NCBI GenBank assembly: GCA_900316455.1 | Contig: ONCX01000015.1 | Location: 1-46,709, forward strand | Direction: 5' to 3' | Length of the DNA stretch: 46,709 nucleotides | Origin: an uncultured Eubacteriales bacterium | GTDB lineage: Bacteria; Bacillota; Clostridia; Oscillospirales; Acutalibacteraceae | In this document: positions 10,211-16,318 of the stretch, one piece after another | Layout: every line of letters starts with the position of its first letter | How positions within the stretch are numbered: position 1 is the first letter of the stretch | The notes under the pieces: generated by a model | Seen by the model: the letters and a program-made list of their open reading frames with translations, nothing else | Database searches by the model: none | Told to the model about the DNA's origin: nothing | Position numbers and translations under genes: made by a program

Positions 10211-10239
10211 TTGAATTGGCAAAAAATATATGATATCAT
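10211..10239 (+). promoter_or_regulatory. Promoter of the Y RNA - rsr locus
   Basis: TTGAAT (10211-10216), 17-nt spacer, TATCAT (10234-10239). The predicted start near 10246 coincides with the first base of the closing stem of Y RNA 1. Confidence 0.8.
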
Positions 10240-10244
10240 AAAGA

Positions 10245-10388
10245 CGATCACATACAGCAGCGCAGAAAGCGGTTACTTCGCCAGTCACGCGAGAGGTGCG
10301 GGTTCGAGTCCCGTCGGTTCGCATGAACCGTAGCTCAATTGGCAGAGCTCTTTTTGTACCGCCTTCGACTATTCTCTGTGTGTGGTCG
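10245..10388 (+). ncRNA. Y RNA 1 (YrlA-like) with circularly permuted tRNA mimic
   Basis: About 144 nt. The ends pair over 12 bp (10246-10257 with 10376-10387, two G-U), then an inner GCGGT/ACCGC stem (10269-10273 with 10358-10362). The 3' strand TTCGACTATT between the stems resembles the conserved UUGACUA of Ro-binding Y RNAs. The head is a tRNA in permuted order: pseudo-anticodon arm 10277-10293 (5 bp, 7-nt loop), AGGT variable region, T arm 10298-10314 with loop TTCGAGT, acceptor stem 10315-10330 closed by a GCAT loop, then TA and a D arm 10333-10348 with loop AATTGGCA. Bacterial YrlA RNAs are known to carry a tRNA-like module; position directly upstream of rsr confirms the call. Confidence 0.9.
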
Positions 10389-10404: not shown

Positions 10405-10494
10405 CCACACAGCAGTGCAGAACGCGGATACTTCGTATTTCATAGATGCAAAAAGAACCGCTTTCGACTATTCTCTGTGTGGTTTTGTTTTTTT
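10405..10494 (+). ncRNA. Y RNA 2, minimal copy without the tRNA module
   Basis: A second Y RNA starting 16 nt after the first. Its 5' part (10409-10435) matches 10254-10280 of copy 1 at 24 of 27 positions, and its 3' part (10457-10481) matches 10358-10382 at 24 of 25. The ends pair perfectly over 8 bp (10405-10412 with 10475-10482), then GCGG/CCGC (10424-10427 with 10458-10461). In place of the tRNA mimic there is a small ATAC-TTC-GTAT hairpin and an A-rich stretch. A T-rich tract (10483-10494) directly after the closing stem can end transcription. No separate promoter is seen, so it is likely cut from a shared transcript. Confidence 0.82.
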
Positions 10495-10514: not shown

Positions 10515-11993
10515 ATGGCTAAATTCAACGAGAAAAACACAAAAAAAATTATGAACCGCGGCGGATTCCCCGCTTATGTCATGGGACTCAGGGAACATCT
10601 CGTTACCTCCGTACTCACCACGCTTTTCGGCGAGCCTAAATTCTACGGCTCCACCGACGGAGACATTCTGCGCTTGGCGACTACCTGCGCGAAGATCGAC
10701 CCTGATTTTCTCTGCCGTCTCACCTGCTATGCCCGCAACGAAAATAACCTCCGCTCAGTCAGCCATATTCTGTGCTGCGTGATAGCGCACGAGGCTCACG
10801 AATATACCCGCGTGACGGTACGCAATATAGTCATACGCCCCGACGACATGACCGAGATACTGGCGTGCTATAAGAAAATGTACGGCAAGCCCTTCCCCAA
10901 CGCGCTCAAGCGTGAGCTTGCCAACGTCATTCAGGGTTTTGACGAATATCAGCTCGCCAAGTATGACCGCGGCGGAGAAATCCGGCTCCGCGACGTACTG
11001 AGGATTACCCACCCCGTTCCAAAGGACGCGCAGACAGAAGCGCTGTTCGGAAAGCTGCTCGGCGGCACGCTTGAAACTCCCTACACATGGGAAACCGAGC
11101 TTTCCGCCAAGGGCAACAAAAAGGAGGTCTGGAACGAGCTTATTTCCTCCGGCAAGGTAGGCTACATGGCGCTTCTGCGAAACCTGCGGAACATCATAAG
11201 AAGCGGCGCGGATCTGAAACCGGTTCTGAACGTTCTCTCGGACCCCGAACGCGTAAAGAAAAGCCGTCAGCTTCCGTTCCGCTTCTACAGCGCGTATCTC
11301 ACGCTGCAAAGCCAGAACATAATGTCCGCCGACGTCCACCGCGCTCTTGAAACGGCGATTGAGGCGTCTGTCGCAAATATGGAGATAATACCCGGCAGAA
11401 CGCTTATCGCAATCGACGTATCAGGCTCCATGGGCAGCCGTATTTCAAAAAACAGCGAGGTGAGATGCTGCGACGTGGCTTCGCTCTTAGGCGCGCTTGC
11501 GAGCCGTATCTGCGAGGACGCGGAGGTCTGCTACTTTGACGCGGCGGGTTCATACTCCCCGAACGGCAGAAAGGGATACACCGTAAAACGCTACGGCAAA
11601 TTCGACTCCATTCTCGAAATATGCAGCGGCAGCAGATTCTACGGCGGCGGCACGCAGATGGATCTTCCCATGATCTACGCGCTCGAGGAGGACGGCAGCA
11701 GGGACATAAAGCCGTTCGACCGCGTTATATATTTCAGCGACGACGAATGCAACAGCTACAGCAGAGGTCTTGAACGGACGGTTCAGGGATTGGCTGACAA
11801 ATACCGCGCAGAATACAACAAGGACTTCTGGGTACACGGCGTTGACATGCAGGGCTACGGTTCGCAGCAGTTCTGCGGCAGCCAATTCAACCTGATAGCC
11901 GGCTGGAGCGACAGCGTACTTCCGTTCATCAATCTTGCCGAAAGAGGCATAGGCAGTCTTGTGAGCGAAATTGCGAAATACGAAATAAAATAA
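10515..11993 (+). CDS. rsr: Ro60/Rsr ortholog, TROVE and vWA domain RNA-binding protein
   Basis: 492 residues, AGGAG 10 nt before the ATG. Residues 15-280 form the TROVE HEAT-repeat ring that binds Y RNA on its outer surface and RNA ends in its hole (GGFPAYVMGLREHLVTSVLTT, ARNENNLRSVSHILCCVIAHE). Residues about 295-490 are a von Willebrand A domain with an intact MIDAS: D301-S303-S305 (IDVSGSMGS), T380 (GGGTQMD) and D409 (YFSDDE). Known bacterial Rsr proteins act in rRNA maturation, starvation RNA decay and, with Y RNA as tether, exoribonuclease PNPase. Two Y RNAs sit directly upstream on the same strand, so RNA and protein are probably co-transcribed, with a U tract between them that could limit read-through. 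A terminator follows. Confidence 0.95.
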   Translation: MAKFNEKNTKKIMNRGGFPAYVMGLREHLVTSVLTTLFGEPKFYGSTDGDILRLATTCAKIDPDFLCRLTCYARNENNLRSVSHILCCVIAHEAHEYTRVTVRNIVIRPDDMTEILACYKKMYGKPFPNALKRELANVIQGFDEYQLAKYDRGGEIRLRDVLRITHPVPKDAQTEALFGKLLGGTLETPYTWETELSAKGNKKEVWNELISSGKVGYMALLRNLRNIIRSGADLKPVLNVLSDPERVKKSRQLPFRFYSAYLTLQSQNIMSADVHRALETAIEASVANMEIIPGRTLIAIDVSGSMGSRISKNSEVRCCDVASLLGALASRICEDAEVCYFDAAGSYSPNGRKGYTVKRYGKFDSILEICSGSRFYGGGTQMDLPMIYALEEDGSRDIKPFDRVIYFSDDECNSYSRGLERTVQGLADKYRAEYNKDFWVHGVDMQGYGSQQFCGSQFNLIAGWSDSVLPFINLAERGIGSLVSEIAKYEIK

Positions 11994-12119: not shown

Positions 12120-13268
12120 TTGAAAATTCTTCATACCTCCGACTGGCATCTTGGAAAGATAGTCATGGCGCAGTCAATGCTCGACGATCAGAAATATTTT
12201 ATCAGGAACGCGTTCCTTAATGCGCTCGATGAATACAGACCTGACGTAATTGTGCTGGCAGGGGATATCTTTGATCGCGGAGTCGCTCCGGTTCCGGCTA
12301 TCGCGCTGTTTGAGGAAACGCTCTACAGCGTCGCCGAGAGGGGAATCCCCCTTATAGCGATATCCGGCAATCACGACAGCCCCGAAAGGCTCATTCCCGC
12401 GGCAAGACTTCTGCGCTCCTCCGGAATATACCTCGCCAATTCAATAGGCGACATTGCCGAGCCTGTGGACATAACCGCCTCCGACGGCAGCCGCGCAAGG
12501 TTTTTCTGTCTGCCGTATTTCGACATTTCCACGGCAAAGCGCTTTACCGGAAACGACGAAATCAAAAATATAAATGAAGCTTACAGATTGCTGACAGAAT
12601 ATGCCGCGGATAAGCTTTCGCCCGAATTCCCGAATATTCTCGTAACCCACTGCACGGTTGCCGGCGCGATTACATGCGACAGCGAAAGCGCAATTTCAGT
12701 CGGCGGGGCGCAGCAGGTTTCGTCCGATATCTTCGGGGCTTTTGACCTCGCCTGTTTAGGACACATTCATTCCCCGCAGCGAGCGGGCGGATGTGCGCGC
12801 TACAGCGGTTCTCCGCTCAGATATTCGTTCGACAGGAACGAGCGCGACAAGAAAATGCTGCTTTATGACGTCTCCGATTCTGTGAATGTCACCGAGATTC
12901 CGATATCCCCTCTGCGGGAGATGCGTGTTGTAAAGGGCAGCTTTGAGGAACTTATGGACGTGCCTGACAACTGCACCGACGACTACATATACGCCGTCGT
13001 GGACGACGATCATCTCATATACGAGCCGATGTCGCGGCTCAGAATCAAATATCCCAATCTGCTCTATCTGGAACAGCTCCACCTTACCCGCACAGTGCAA
13101 GCCGCCGGCGACGGCAGCGATACAAGGCGCGGGATAATATCGGATTCCATCAGCGACGAGGAAATATTCATGTCGTTCCTGCGCGACATATGCGGAGTCG
13201 AGCCGACGGAGGACGAGATATCGTTCTTCAGCGAAATTAATAAAAGAACAGGAGACGATGAAAATTGA
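12120..13268 (+). CDS. sbcD: Exonuclease subunit SbcD (Mre11 homologue)
   Basis: 382 residues from a TTG at 12120 with AGAGGAG 8-14 nt upstream. The phosphoesterase motifs are in order: SDWHLGK (residues 7-13), LAGDIFDRG (about 45-53), ISGNHDSPERL (about 80-90), VTHCTVAGA and LGHIHSPQ. These bind two Mn ions and cut DNA ends. The partner sbcC overlaps the end by 4 nt. SbcCD opens hairpins and trims blocked double-strand ends. Length and motif set are normal. Confidence 0.96.
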   Translation: MKILHTSDWHLGKIVMAQSMLDDQKYFIRNAFLNALDEYRPDVIVLAGDIFDRGVAPVPAIALFEETLYSVAERGIPLIAISGNHDSPERLIPAARLLRSSGIYLANSIGDIAEPVDITASDGSRARFFCLPYFDISTAKRFTGNDEIKNINEAYRLLTEYAADKLSPEFPNILVTHCTVAGAITCDSESAISVGGAQQVSSDIFGAFDLACLGHIHSPQRAGGCARYSGSPLRYSFDRNERDKKMLLYDVSDSVNVTEIPISPLREMRVVKGSFEELMDVPDNCTDDYIYAVVDDDHLIYEPMSRLRIKYPNLLYLEQLHLTRTVQAAGDGSDTRRGIISDSISDEEIFMSFLRDICGVEPTEDEISFFSEINKRTGDDEN

Positions 13269-16200
13269 AGCCGGTTTATCTCAGAATGACGGCATTCGCC
13301 TCTTACAGCGGCACAGCCGAGGTTGATTTTACCAAGCTATATGAGGACGGTATATTCCTCATCACCGGCAAGACCGGCGGCGGCAAGACGACGATTCTCG
13401 ACGCGATATGCGCGTCGCTTTACGGCAAGGCGACCGGCAGCGTTCGCGGCGACGACTGGAGACAGCTCAGATGCACCGACGCTCCCGACAGCCGCGACAC
13501 CGAGCTGGAATACGTTTTTTCTGTCGGAAATATAAAATACAGATTCTATCGGCGCTGGCACATGCCGAATTCCAAAAAGGGCGAACGCCGTCTGGACGAC
13601 AAGGAGAATGTCTGTTCCCGCATGACCGCCGGTTCGGACGAATGGGAATGCATATCCACAGGCAGTTCCAAGGCGCTCAGGGAAGCCGCCGAGAGCATAC
13701 TCAGCCTGACTCACGACCAGTTTGTCAAGCTGATAATGCTGCCTCAGGGAGAATTCAGAGAACTGCTTATCGCAAACGACGAAAAAAAGACGGAGATATT
13801 CAAGAAGCTCTTCGATACGGAGCGTTGGGAGATAATTACCGAGCGGATAAAGCAGGAGGCAAAGACGATTGGCGAAAGCTGCGCCGAACAGAGGAATATC
13901 CGCCGTCTTGCGCTTGAACAAGCCAAGTGCGCTTCGCCCGACGAGCTTGAACTCAGGATAAATGAAATTACCGGCTCGCTTGCGTCGCTCGCTGAAAAAG
14001 CGAAGCGGAACGAAATGGAAACAAGGCAAAGCGCGGAGGCTCTTCAGAATGGAGAAACGCTCTCAAAGATATTCATGGAACTGGACGCACGCCGCACCGA
14101 GCTGAAAGAGCTTGATTCCATGACGGAGCAATACGGTAAGCTGAGGGAAAAGCTTGCCCACAGCCGAAGACTGCGCGGCGTTCTCCCTGAATACGGCATG
14201 ATGAACGCGGCAATCAGCGAGTATGAGCGAGCCGGCGCAGCTCTTGAAAAATCCGTAAAGGACAAGTCGGAAGCCGACTCAAGGCTCCTATCGGCAACGG
14301 AAAAATACGCCGGAATTCCGGAGCTTGAAAAACGCGCCGACAGTCTTAAAAGCAAATCCGCCAACCTCGGCGAGCTTGCAAAGGACAGCGCAAAGCACGC
14401 TCAGGCAAAAAGCAGCCTGAAAGAACACACATCTCAGTTAACAGCCGCGCAAAATGATCTTAAAAAGCTGGAAGACGAAAAGAAGAACCTCGAAGAAAGC
14501 ATAAAGAACGGCGAAGAATATCTCCGGCAGTTCATAGAAGCGTCGGAAGCGCTTCCCACAGCCGTTCAGGAATACGAGCAAATAAAAAACGCTCTCTCAA
14601 TTGCGAAGGATTATGAGAAAAAAAGCGCTGCGCTGTCGGAAGTCAAAAAGAAAATTTCCGCCACGGAGACCGAAATAAGCCGCGGGGAAACGGAGCTTGC
14701 CTCACAGAAAAAATCAGTCGAGGTCATGGAACAGGCTATCCGCCGCGATATGGCATATTCGCTCGCCAGCGGACTTGCAGACGGCGCGCCCTGTCCGGTT
14801 TGCGGAGCCATGCACCACCCAAGCCCTGCCCAGCCGTCCGCTTCAACTCCGACGGCGGAGCAGCTCGACACATGCAGGGCGCTTGCCGACCGCACTTCCG
14901 CGGAGCTTGAATCGCTTCGGAAGGAGCATTCCGGACTGATCGCGGAGCAGGGTATTCTTCTTAGGGATATTTCCGCGATATCCGAAAAGGCAGGTACGGA
15001 AAAAATAAAAAGCCCGTCCGCGCTTCAAACGGAAGCGGAAGCGGCTAAGGGCAGAAAAGCGAGGCTTGAAAATCAGGCGAAAAAAGTCGGTCCGGCGAGG
15101 TCAAAAATCGAAGAATACAACCGTAAGCTTAGCGCCAAAAGCGCCGACATAAAAAACGCCGAAACACATATAAACAATCTCTCCATTCAGATAAATACGG
15201 ACAATCAGACACTCGCTCAACTTGACGGACGTCTGCATTCACACAGCATAGCAAGCTTTGAGGAATTGAAAGGCATACTCGGACAGACCGCCGCCGATCT
15301 GAAAAAGACGGAGGGCGAAATAAAAAGAATAACCGACGCCTTCAACAGCGCGAAAAATTCCGCCGACAGTGCCGGAGTTCTGCTGGAGAATGCCCGCGAA
15401 AGCGTAAAACGGGCGGAATACGACCGAAGCGCACGAACCGCCGAATTTACGGCAAGATGCGTACAGCTTGGCATTCCTGAGGACAGCGACTTCAAAAACG
15501 GCATTCTAAGCGAAAAGGACGAATCGGAATTCGAGGGGAAACTGAAGGAATACGACGACAAACTTGAATTCGCCCGCCGGAGAAGCGCGGAGCTTGCCGC
15601 CGAAACCGCGGACAAGGCACGTCCCGACATGGAAGCGCTCAGATCCGCGAACAAATCCGCGCTTGACGCGGGACGCGAAATCGCAAGGCAAAAAGGCGAA
15701 TGCGATTCCATACTCGGCTCGCTGAAAAACTGCCGCGAAACCGTCAAAAAAGCCGACAACGCGCTTGAAACGCTGGAAAGAAAATACGGCACGGCACAGC
15801 GGATATGCAGTCTGCTTTCCAACAAAAACGCCGCCAAAACCTCCATTCACCGGTACGTCATAGGCATAAAGATGGACGAAATCATCATTCAGGCTAACCA
15901 GTATTTAAAAAGGCTTACCAGAGGGCAGTACGCAATGAGGCGCATCGAGGGCGGAGCCGATAAAATCAATCACGCGCTCGACATCGAAATTATAGACGGC
16001 AGCGCGGGCGGCATACGTCCGGTCTCCACGCTTTCCGGCGGAGAGATGTTCCTTGCGTCGCTGGCGCTGGCGTTCGGTCTGTCGGAAACCGTGCAGAGCT
16101 TTGCCGGAGGAATCCACCTCGATTCGCTCTTTATTGACGAGGGCTTCGGGTCGCTGGACAGCGAAACGCTCGACACAGCAATGGAAGCCATCACCCGCGT

Positions 16201-16318
16201 GCGTGACAACAGGCTTTTAGGGATAATCTCACACGTTACCGAGCTTCAGGAGCGCATTCCATGCGGCATAGAGGTCGTAAAGAATCGTGACGGTTCGTCT
16301 TTAAGAATAAGAAAATGA
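13265..16318 (+). CDS. sbcC: Exonuclease subunit SbcC (Rad50-like SMC ATPase)
   Basis: 1017 residues from a TTG that overlaps the sbcD stop (TTGA), so translation is coupled. Walker A GKTGGGKTT at residues 35-43, Q-loop around LPQGEFRELL, a long two-part coiled coil rich in Lys/Glu/Ala, a zinc hook C510-P-V-C513 at its centre, signature LSGGE at 923-927 and Walker B FIDEGFGSLD with D958-E959. The zinc hook joins two SbcC arms. It powers SbcD in repair of hairpins and protein-blocked ends. Length is typical. Confidence 0.97.
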   Translation: MKPVYLRMTAFASYSGTAEVDFTKLYEDGIFLITGKTGGGKTTILDAICASLYGKATGSVRGDDWRQLRCTDAPDSRDTELEYVFSVGNIKYRFYRRWHMPNSKKGERRLDDKENVCSRMTAGSDEWECISTGSSKALREAAESILSLTHDQFVKLIMLPQGEFRELLIANDEKKTEIFKKLFDTERWEIITERIKQEAKTIGESCAEQRNIRRLALEQAKCASPDELELRINEITGSLASLAEKAKRNEMETRQSAEALQNGETLSKIFMELDARRTELKELDSMTEQYGKLREKLAHSRRLRGVLPEYGMMNAAISEYERAGAALEKSVKDKSEADSRLLSATEKYAGIPELEKRADSLKSKSANLGELAKDSAKHAQAKSSLKEHTSQLTAAQNDLKKLEDEKKNLEESIKNGEEYLRQFIEASEALPTAVQEYEQIKNALSIAKDYEKKSAALSEVKKKISATETEISRGETELASQKKSVEVMEQAIRRDMAYSLASGLADGAPCPVCGAMHHPSPAQPSASTPTAEQLDTCRALADRTSAELESLRKEHSGLIAEQGILLRDISAISEKAGTEKIKSPSALQTEAEAAKGRKARLENQAKKVGPARSKIEEYNRKLSAKSADIKNAETHINNLSIQINTDNQTLAQLDGRLHSHSIASFEELKGILGQTAADLKKTEGEIKRITDAFNSAKNSADSAGVLLENARESVKRAEYDRSARTAEFTARCVQLGIPEDSDFKNGILSEKDESEFEGKLKEYDDKLEFARRRSAELAAETADKARPDMEALRSANKSALDAGREIARQKGECDSILGSLKNCRETVKKADNALETLERKYGTAQRICSLLSNKNAAKTSIHRYVIGIKMDEIIIQANQYLKRLTRGQYAMRRIEGGADKINHALDIEIIDGSAGGIRPVSTLSGGEMFLASLALAFGLSETVQSFAGGIHLDSLFIDEGFGSLDSETLDTAMEAITRVRDNRLLGIISHVTELQERIPCGIEVVKNRDGSSLRIRK

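Follow-up and report, generated by a model that had tools for sequence, protein, structure and literature searches.

What kind of RNA lies upstream of the Ro60 gene in this genome, and is the additional hairpin in its head an anticodon arm? The window, by which we mean the whole 46,709-nucleotide stretch of DNA from an uncultured Eubacteriales bacterium that was analysed, contains at 10245-10388 of the forward strand an RNA that a sequence-only reading had described as a Y RNA with a complete, circularly permuted tRNA mimic. Our main reading, which we hold with a probability of about 0.78, is that this is a YrlA-type Y RNA upstream of rsr, that its head corresponds to a complete tRNA rotated between the D and anticodon arms, and that its body would bind Rsr while the head, probably L-shaped, would dock effectors.

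The locus and the architecture of its Y RNA

The rsr gene, which encodes a Ro60 orthologue of 492 aa (10515-11993, forward strand; TROVE 2.3e-33, vWA_Ro60 6.9e-9), starts 126 nt 3' of the Y RNA, so that the RNA and the Rsr gene are adjacent. The closest named relative of this Rsr is found in an 'uncultured Ruminococcus' MAG (66%), which makes Bacillota the presumable phylum. Genes for a sigma-70-family factor, a HATPase protein and an HTH protein lie upstream of the locus, and genes for SbcD- and SbcC-like nucleases lie directly 3' of rsr (12120-16318); an SbcD/SbcC-like start is not obvious downstream of rsr in the stretches of eight relatives. RtcB is present in all 18 genomes of the genus and, in the window's genome, on another contig. 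Ahead of the Y RNA, a promoter-like pair, TTGAAT-17-TATCAT with a TG before the second hexamer (10211-10239, forward strand), predicts a start near 10246, in agreement with where the basal stem begins; two such sites were found against 1.4 expected in shuffles, so that the pair counts for little alone. Between the Y RNA and rsr sits a second, short Y RNA (10405-10482, forward strand; type III below), which has the same body and no tRNA module. It folds well over 10405-10484 (z -2.96), is matched at 10410-10484 with 32.7 bits by R1, our covariance model of the window's RNA, and is tied to the longer Y RNA by a 25-nt direct repeat of 96% identity; a T-rich run follows its stem.

The architecture of the longer RNA, in which all features are on the forward strand, can be followed from the outside inwards. 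Its 5' and 3' ends are joined by a stem, as in YrlA, the outer part of which comprises 13 bp in the minimum free energy (MFE) fold (basal stem, 10245-10257 with 10376-10388), and its body is common to the genus. This body consists of the motif CAGCAGYGCAG..GCGGUUAC (10255-10276), which the sub-types of Y RNA in the genus have in common, of a stem pairing GCGGU(U)AC (10269-10276) with GUACCGC (10356-10362), evident by direct reading and in the MFE fold, and of a 3' half, recognized by genus comparison, with GUACCGC and CUUCGACUAUUCU (10356-10375). The head holds, from 5' to 3', an anticodon arm, a variable region, a T arm, an acceptor stem, U8-A9 and a D arm, an order that reads as that of a tRNA rotated at the junction of D arm and anticodon arm. 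The pseudo-anticodon arm UUCGC-CAGUCAC-GCGAG (10277-10293; direct reading and the A1 alignment described below) has five base pairs, the outer one U-G, and a seven-nucleotide loop, CAGUCAC (10282-10288), which is equivalent to positions 32-38 with A33, A37 and C38. It is followed by the 4-nt variable region AGGU, with U48 matching A15 (10294-10297; direct reading), by the T arm GCGGG-UUCGAGU-CCCGU (10298-10314; direct reading, Rfam alignment and A1) and by the 6-bp acceptor CGGUUC/GAACCG, closed by GCAT (10315-10330; direct reading and fold). The dinucleotide UA, equivalent to tRNA positions 8-9 (10331-10332; direct reading), leads into the D arm GCUC-AAUUGGCA-GAGC with A14, A15 and G18G19 (10333-10348; direct reading and Rfam alignment).

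Measured against tRNA, the window's RNA has the tertiary elements A15-U48, U8, A14, G18G19 and the T loop, and, of the rules for a 5-bp/7-nt anticodon arm, it has the arm and A37 and lacks U33. Its acceptor loop, GCAT, is without an encoded CCA, and neither ARAGORN nor Rfam called a native-order tRNA with free 5' and CCA ends at the locus. The anatomy given in the sequence-only reading (stem-closed RNA, arms, GCAT, TA linker, coordinates) agrees base for base with our direct reading, and its helices recur in the MFE fold. Two of its details needed refining. The A33 that it had noted within a 5-bp/7-nt arm is present in the window but local, U33 standing in 13 of 15 A1 rows with the window and genome G206 as exceptions, and the acceptor stem, closed by GCAT as described, has 6 bp where most relatives have 7. 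With its A33, 6-bp acceptor and 4-nt variable region, the window's copy is a slightly degenerate member of its kind. The similarity of its arm to that of tRNA-Asp (CTGTCAC) is a single observation.

Pairing in the fold and across the genus

Taken by itself, the segment 10245-10388 has an MFE of -55.0 kcal/mol (z -2.94, with 3 of 200 shuffles as good), and the MFE fold includes the basal stem, the body stem, the 5-bp/7-nt arm, the T arm, the GCAT-closed acceptor and the D arm, the last being one pair longer (10332 with 10349). When the basal stem is omitted (10257-10380), z becomes 0.11. The z score of -2.94 is therefore owed to the long basal stem, and the head by itself is no more stable than shuffled sequences. 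Ensemble pair probabilities are 0.29-0.52 for the extra arm and 0.64-1.0 for the T arm, the first six acceptor pairs and the D arm. Since single-sequence folding neither proves nor excludes the extra arm, the case for it rests on comparison. ARAGORN, tried on de-permuted sequences as a test of the arm, was rejected: it called 15 of 15, yet shuffling the arm still left 1387 of 1500 called, and it consequently gives the arm no support (controls: random arm, 1230/1500; stem shuffled, 1466/1500; arm deleted, 0/15).

The window's genus comprises 18 genomes, in 17 of which Rsr was found, and 14 of the 18 have full-length R1 matches above 100 bits, which, together with the position beside rsr and the match of the core to Rfam described below, bears out the assignment to YrlA-type Y RNAs made in the sequence-only reading. 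The R1 match in G212 reaches 84.9 bits and has, by eye, a 12-nt loop at the arm's place, G205 has a short Y RNA only, and R1 revealed no clear Y RNA in G204 or G201. The Y RNAs at the rsr loci of the genus stand in arrays and share one body; their heads, which we sorted by eye, fall into four types: type I is a tRNA with the extra arm, type II a tRNA module without it, type III short, and type IV about 200-250 nt long with a head that is not tRNA-like. Type IV RNAs occur in loci L037 (3051-3271, reverse strand), L038 (1226-1439), L039 (1221-1419) and L304 (500-690), and in L037, L038 and L039 they are the Y RNA nearest rsr. Genome G036 has three Y RNAs, including a type I copy, on contig C51 (L003), and its rsr on contig C87 (L039), adjoining the type IV RNA.

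We aligned 15 type I copies of the genus, 14 of them distinct (alignment A1). Over the whole structure and the 14 distinct rows, 95.6% of cells are paired (85.0% in shuffles), 11 pairs have two-sided changes (5.8 shuffled), and the covariation score is 0.307 (0.099 shuffled), a value reached by none of 500 shuffles; with the partners slid, it drops to 0.036-0.114. Two-sided changes affect 6 of 7 acceptor pairs and 3 of 5 T-arm pairs, the D arm being invariant. As for the extra arm, 94.3% of its cells are paired and its innermost pair has seven two-sided changes, occurring as U-A in 6 rows, C-G in 4, A-U in 3 and unpaired in 1; the four outer pairs are invariant or depart by unpaired cells only. 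Because Y RNAs that lack the arm also keep the UUCG of its 5' strand almost unchanged, evidence for the arm comes only from its 3' strand and innermost pair. The loop spacing is 7 nt in 15 of 15 rows, a constancy that is partly a selection effect because the rows were picked as type I look-alikes, whereas the change of the innermost pair is not affected by this picking. Pairing is thus kept in most type I copies, so that the loss of pairing in relatives by which the sequence-only reading would have been refuted did not show, and the extra arm, with its constant 7-nt spacing and covarying innermost pair, is no accident.

Two smaller observations concern the same region. In the window, 10332-10359 reads as the D arm followed by CTTTTTG and scores as intrinsic-terminator-like; of the 14 other A1 rows, 6 have CUAAU at this site and none a five-T run, so that early termination inside the head, if real, would be peculiar to this copy. 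The arm region has one more match in the genome (G000:C54; 89% over 28 nt, E 0.008), which, with neither a T arm nor a body around it, was taken as chance.

The Rfam YrlA model (RF02553), proposed in the sequence-only reading as a check, does match the RNA, at 10292-10351 with 38.3 bits (E 7.2e-7), but covers the T arm, acceptor and D arm only and stays below the gathering score of 69, which is a convention for calling matches rather than a biological feature. In the alignments this model has no anticodon arm and places a closing stem beside the D arm instead, and at locus L082 the extra arm enters as an unmodelled insert; lacking the arm, the model lets curated searches miss the arm-bearing group. 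Across seven named Rsr loci, 1 of 17 matches reaches the gathering score (X. sacchari, 72.1), and a Rhizobium copy from an rsr-rtcB locus reaches 64.1. When 200 family genomes were searched, the model had matches at E <= 0.001 in 26, of which 3 belong to the genus; the loci outside the genus that were read by eye are tandem tRNA genes and were rejected as Y RNAs. The R1 scan of 398 family genomes, run with strict filters so that its figures cover the matches listed, matched 370 genomes and, among the matches listed, exceeded 50 bits only in the genus and in G346, which has Rsr; seven other matched genomes that were checked have none. Outside these, 20 of 22 matched loci overlap two ARAGORN tRNAs and 2 overlap one (again among the matches listed), the two-tRNA overlaps being nearly all Asp-Phe junctions at about 40 bits. 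Since R1 also matches ordinary tRNA junctions, arm order alone is unspecific.

Relatives in bacteria, phages and plasmids

TROVE was found in 10 of 398 phylum genomes and in 38 of 148 genomes in the family of G513. Of 37 Rsr loci outside the genus that were scanned with R1, 33 gave more than 50 bits, the other four being L083 (tRNA genes), L163, L080 and L160. These 33 loci represent 27 distinct RNAs, most of which stem from genomes of a single family and are related to each other, and 24 of the 27 have a closed arm, that is, an innermost Watson-Crick pair with CG behind it (A-U 21, C-G 2, G-C 1). The loops of these 24 are highly uniform at C32 (23), U33 (24), U36 (22), A37 (23) and A38 (24), and vary at position 34 (U 14, G 9, C 1) and position 35 (U 13, C 10, G 1). 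The pseudo-anticodon arm is therefore not peculiar to the window, and it recurs in plasmid and phage relatives.

Among 13 Rsr loci in named records, seven have YrlA-like R1 matches of at least 36.9 bits (L284, L285, L288-L291, L295), and no YrlA-like match above 23 bits was found in L286, L287, L292, L293, L294 and L296; of four further named Rsr loci, L309 is without such a match and L308 has weak ones only. By eye, a 5-bp arm is present in a Rhodococcus plasmid copy (loop CTGTTAA) and in Caulobacter phages CcrPW and CcrColossus and Xanthomonas phage 10KY502B (loop CTTGTAA), while 3-bp stems carry U33 loops in X. sacchari and Methylosinus and a C33 loop in Rhizobium, all in loci with rtcB. 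Armless copies stand in the same named loci (e.g., L284 500-640, L285 850-985, L289 1000-1150), and the Deinococcus gobiensis plasmid copy (L288) has, by eye, a UUCAU-UCGG-AUGA tetraloop hairpin at the arm's place. Searching viral sequences with one Rsr protein gave no match.

Several phage records annotate such RNAs as tRNAs. GenBank tRNA features overlap R1 matches beside Rsr at L285:1307-1374 (Thr, Xanthomonas phage 10KY502B), L306:673-740 (Gln, Caulobacter phage CcrColossus) and L307:1293-1367 (Ser, Brevundimonas phage Gurke), and are probably misannotated Y RNAs; ARAGORN repeats only the Ser call. An anticodon arm would offer a reason why some Y RNAs of this kind are entered as tRNA genes in phage records. 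In crAss-like phage cr112_1, a 142-nt RNA downstream of the TROVE gene (L286:3606-3747) holds a native-order tRNA (Rfam tRNA, 50.2 bits): the acceptor and D arm come first, the T arm and acceptor last, and a Y-body-like hairpin ending in GAGTTACTTC separates the D arm from the T arm. The whole can be read as a YrlA that has been opened at the acceptor end and not at the body. RNAs of this type occur in 24 phage records at 75-100% identity (also L310, L311, L312), and the cr112_1 RNA does not fold clearly better than shuffles (z -1.37). Upstream of Rsr in phage csAssE-Sib (L308:1125-1425), two Y-body-like RNAs with native-order tRNA heads, annotated in GenBank as tRNA-Tyr and tRNA-Lys, lie beside a third copy that reads permuted (all by eye); these folds are no better than shuffles. 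Phage RNAs thus appear to join Y body and tRNA in other circular orders, which suggests that the junction may have moved. Abundant RNAs of Listeria phage CKA15 are proposed as Y RNAs in an excerpt of PMC12282133. In the stretch of its relative P100 searched with R1, there were weak matches at tRNA genes only, and P100 therefore provides no expression support.

Phage contigs were scanned with two patterns. The first, which prescribed the loop CTGTTAA and allowed any closing pair, gave 60 matches: all 42 with T- and D-arm motifs close with a Watson-Crick pair (C-G 13, A-U 10, G-C 10, U-A 9), as do 13 of the other 18, neither set being de-duplicated. The second, with the arm's 3' strand and loop left open, gave at least 120 stretches, and its analysis covers the new loci L180-L283. 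Among the matches listed, it comprises 105 distinct strings, 61 of them with a downstream D-arm motif, and 39 of these 61 form a hairpin with a 7-nt loop and 4 bp or more, against a mean of 4.8 and a maximum of 12 with shuffled inserts. In these 39, again among the matches listed, U33 occurs in 38, A/G37 in 38 and A38 in 36, while positions 34-36 make up 23 different triplets; where there is no D-arm motif, 21 of 44 listed matches have a 7-nt hairpin, 18 of the 21 with U33. Control hairpins of the same shape on the same contigs, with no T arm nearby, have U33 in 44 of 99 and A38 in 19 of 99 (not de-duplicated), and the ARAGORN tRNAs of both scans' contigs have U33 in 790, R37 in 810 and A38 in 599 of 819. 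The idea that the loop mimics tRNA-Asn and its queuosine (CTGTTAA) was dropped in view of the 23 triplets, the prominence of CTGTTAA being partly due to the first pattern, which contained that loop. An enrichment of U36 over real tRNAs was likewise set aside: it is strong only in the biased set (35/51 vs 269/819), and since p is about 0.1 in the clusters from L180 upward (11 of 21), it is not claimed.

We then collected 171 cores (121 viral or plasmid, 50 bacterial) having a Y-type TACTTC, a T arm, a permuted acceptor of at least 5 bp and a D arm; the 169 readable to the end fall into 97 clusters at 85% identity. The 15-48 pair is A-U in 41 clusters, G-C in 52, mixed in none and other in 4, with no association at the control pairs 15-47 and 16-48 and too few cases at 15-46. 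A 7-nt arm is present in 51 of the 97 clusters (U33 in 49), some of which come from the fixed-loop scan, and 46 have no 7-nt hairpin of 4 bp; among clusters from L180 upward, the arm occurs in 21 of 48, with U33 and A38 in all 21. G36 goes with G37 in 7 of 7 arm-bearing clusters, as in 126 of 177 real tRNAs. The claim of a complete, circularly permuted tRNA mimic is hence supported, and better so across relatives (A1 covariation, the 15-48 pair, U33 and A38) than in the window. As for the acceptor end, the acceptor loop of cores with a 7-bp acceptor encodes NCCA at precisely positions 73-76 in 14 of 83 viral or plasmid and 6 of 38 bacterial cases, and at any other offset at most once per core set. 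By clusters this makes 9 of 67 against about 1 expected (Poisson p 1.6e-6), with none at the other offsets 0-9. NCCA-bearing loops occur, for example, in L112, L198, L284 and L003, and some phage copies have 10-31 nt between the CCA and the 5' acceptor strand. The encoded NCCA suggests either that these RNAs descend from tandem tRNA genes or that they are processed at this point.

Interpretation, alternatives and known systems

Arm order, pairing and its covariation, the covariation of positions 15 and 48 and, in arm-bearing relatives, the anticodon-loop rules are read directly from the genomes. Taken together they describe what seems to be a widespread anticodon-armed variant of YrlA beside many copies without the arm. 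In the mechanism that we propose, the ends of the tRNA module would continue into a Ro60-binding body, the acceptor end being closed by the short loop. The body would bind Rsr, and the head, folded into a tRNA-like L shape whose surface the extra arm may complete, would dock an effector such as PNPase and/or tRNA-modifying enzymes. The sequence-only reading had likewise suggested modification by tRNA enzymes, or else a gating of access to Ro60, as possible functions. U33, the combination at 36-37 and A38 are kept while 34-36 drift, and these features therefore point to a reader of the anticodon loop rather than to decoding; the arm may have been kept because such readers act on it. U36-A37 and G36-G37 are determinants of t6A37 and m1G37. 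By these rules, position-37 modification enzymes are the most probable readers, and a decoy role of the arm towards anticodon nucleases is possible.

Could the arm instead be a structural spacer that separates head from body or stacks under the D arm, its anticodon likeness inherited from a tRNA ancestor and unselected? We consider this unlikely, though it has points in its favour: the arm is absent or altered, by eye, in type II copies of the same arrays, L086 and L085 show no 7-nt-loop closure, G212 and the Deinococcus plasmid copy have their 12-nt loop and tetraloop in its place (both by eye), and the window itself has A33. Yet a spacer would need neither the retention of U33, R37 and A38 with drifting 34-36 and a covarying closing pair across distant hosts and phages, nor the company of G36 and G37 in all seven clusters, a habit that real tRNAs mostly share. 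A cryptic permuted tRNA gene, processed by RNase P and by 3' trimming in the acceptor loop to a chargeable RNA, would account for the NCCA at 73-76 in relatives and for the longer spacing behind the CCA in some phage copies, but it is very improbable given that the window has GCAT and most cores likewise lack CCA, that the RNA has a Y RNA body and lies beside rsr, and that positions 34-36 vary without pattern. The matches of R1 to tRNA junctions, 20 of the 22 listed loci overlapping two tRNAs, would at most recommend a chance junction of tandem tRNA genes or a decayed tRNA pair that is not a Y RNA. We regard that idea as refuted by the covariation of the acceptor strands (6 of 7 pairs two-sided), by the conserved Y RNA body and adjacency to rsr, and by the confinement of listed family matches above 50 bits to the genus and the Rsr-bearing G346.

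Building on the reading as an anticodon-armed Y RNA, a wider proposal can be made tentatively: bacteria and phages would share widespread Y RNAs with a complete permuted tRNA, whose anticodon loop is selected by loop-reading enzymes, so that the Ro60 particle displays a decoy or sensor tRNA, for example towards anticodon nucleases in phage infection, and which arose by tandem tRNA duplication, with a CCA remnant in some acceptor loops. That the anticodon-loop rules hold not only in the window's phylum but also on an actinobacterial plasmid and in many phages gives the arm a wider meaning: an arm obeying them widens the possible readers to anticodon-loop enzymes, and position-37 modifications and binding at 33-38 would be expected of such an RNA. 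The idea that YrlA competes with an anticodon nuclease, voiced in an excerpt of PMC7790460, becomes testable in an arm-bearing form, although Salmonella YrlA is reported in the same excerpt not to be a substrate of the anticodon nuclease studied.

Two known systems resemble the RNA in different respects. The permuted tRNA genes of red and green algae and archaea likewise have the 3' part first, a short join at the acceptor end, and U8, 15-48, G18G19 and U33 kept, and the algal ones mature by splicing through a circular intermediate (PMC3978253, in excerpt); the tRNA module of the window's RNA, in contrast, is opened at the D/anticodon junction, where it passes into a Y RNA body. Tandem tRNA junctions share the arm order and differ by having no Y RNA body and no rsr, and acceptor-strand pairing between neighbours is expected to be absent from them.

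The closest comparison is with Y RNAs themselves. Excerpts of PMC8394870 and PMC7790460 state that bacterial Y RNA binds Rsr via its stem and tethers PNPase, and that the YrlA head is modified by tRNA enzymes. By analogy, the mode of the Deinococcus radiodurans Y RNA in RYPER (Rsr-Y RNA-PNPase) would be expected of the window's RNA, the Deinococcus copy at L288 differing by a shorter hairpin without a 7-nt loop at the arm's place. YrlA (RF02553), represented by that of Salmonella Typhimurium (PDB 6CU1), is likewise found beside rsr, with a Ro60-binding body and a permuted T arm-acceptor-D arm head, for which a circular superposition on tRNA is reported in an excerpt of PMC11472068. Y RNAs of this kind bind Rsr and contain D and pseudouridine, traits that the window's RNA may share. 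In the excerpt of PMC8394870 its arms are given as D, T and acceptor only, and the literature searched, available in part, holds no statement on an anticodon arm in YrlA, which primary papers may nevertheless describe. What is known, then, is that YrlA mimics tRNA; what is apparently new, as far as these partial sources go, is the variant that has an additional 5-bp/7-nt anticodon arm in front of the variable region, and that the Rfam model does not include.
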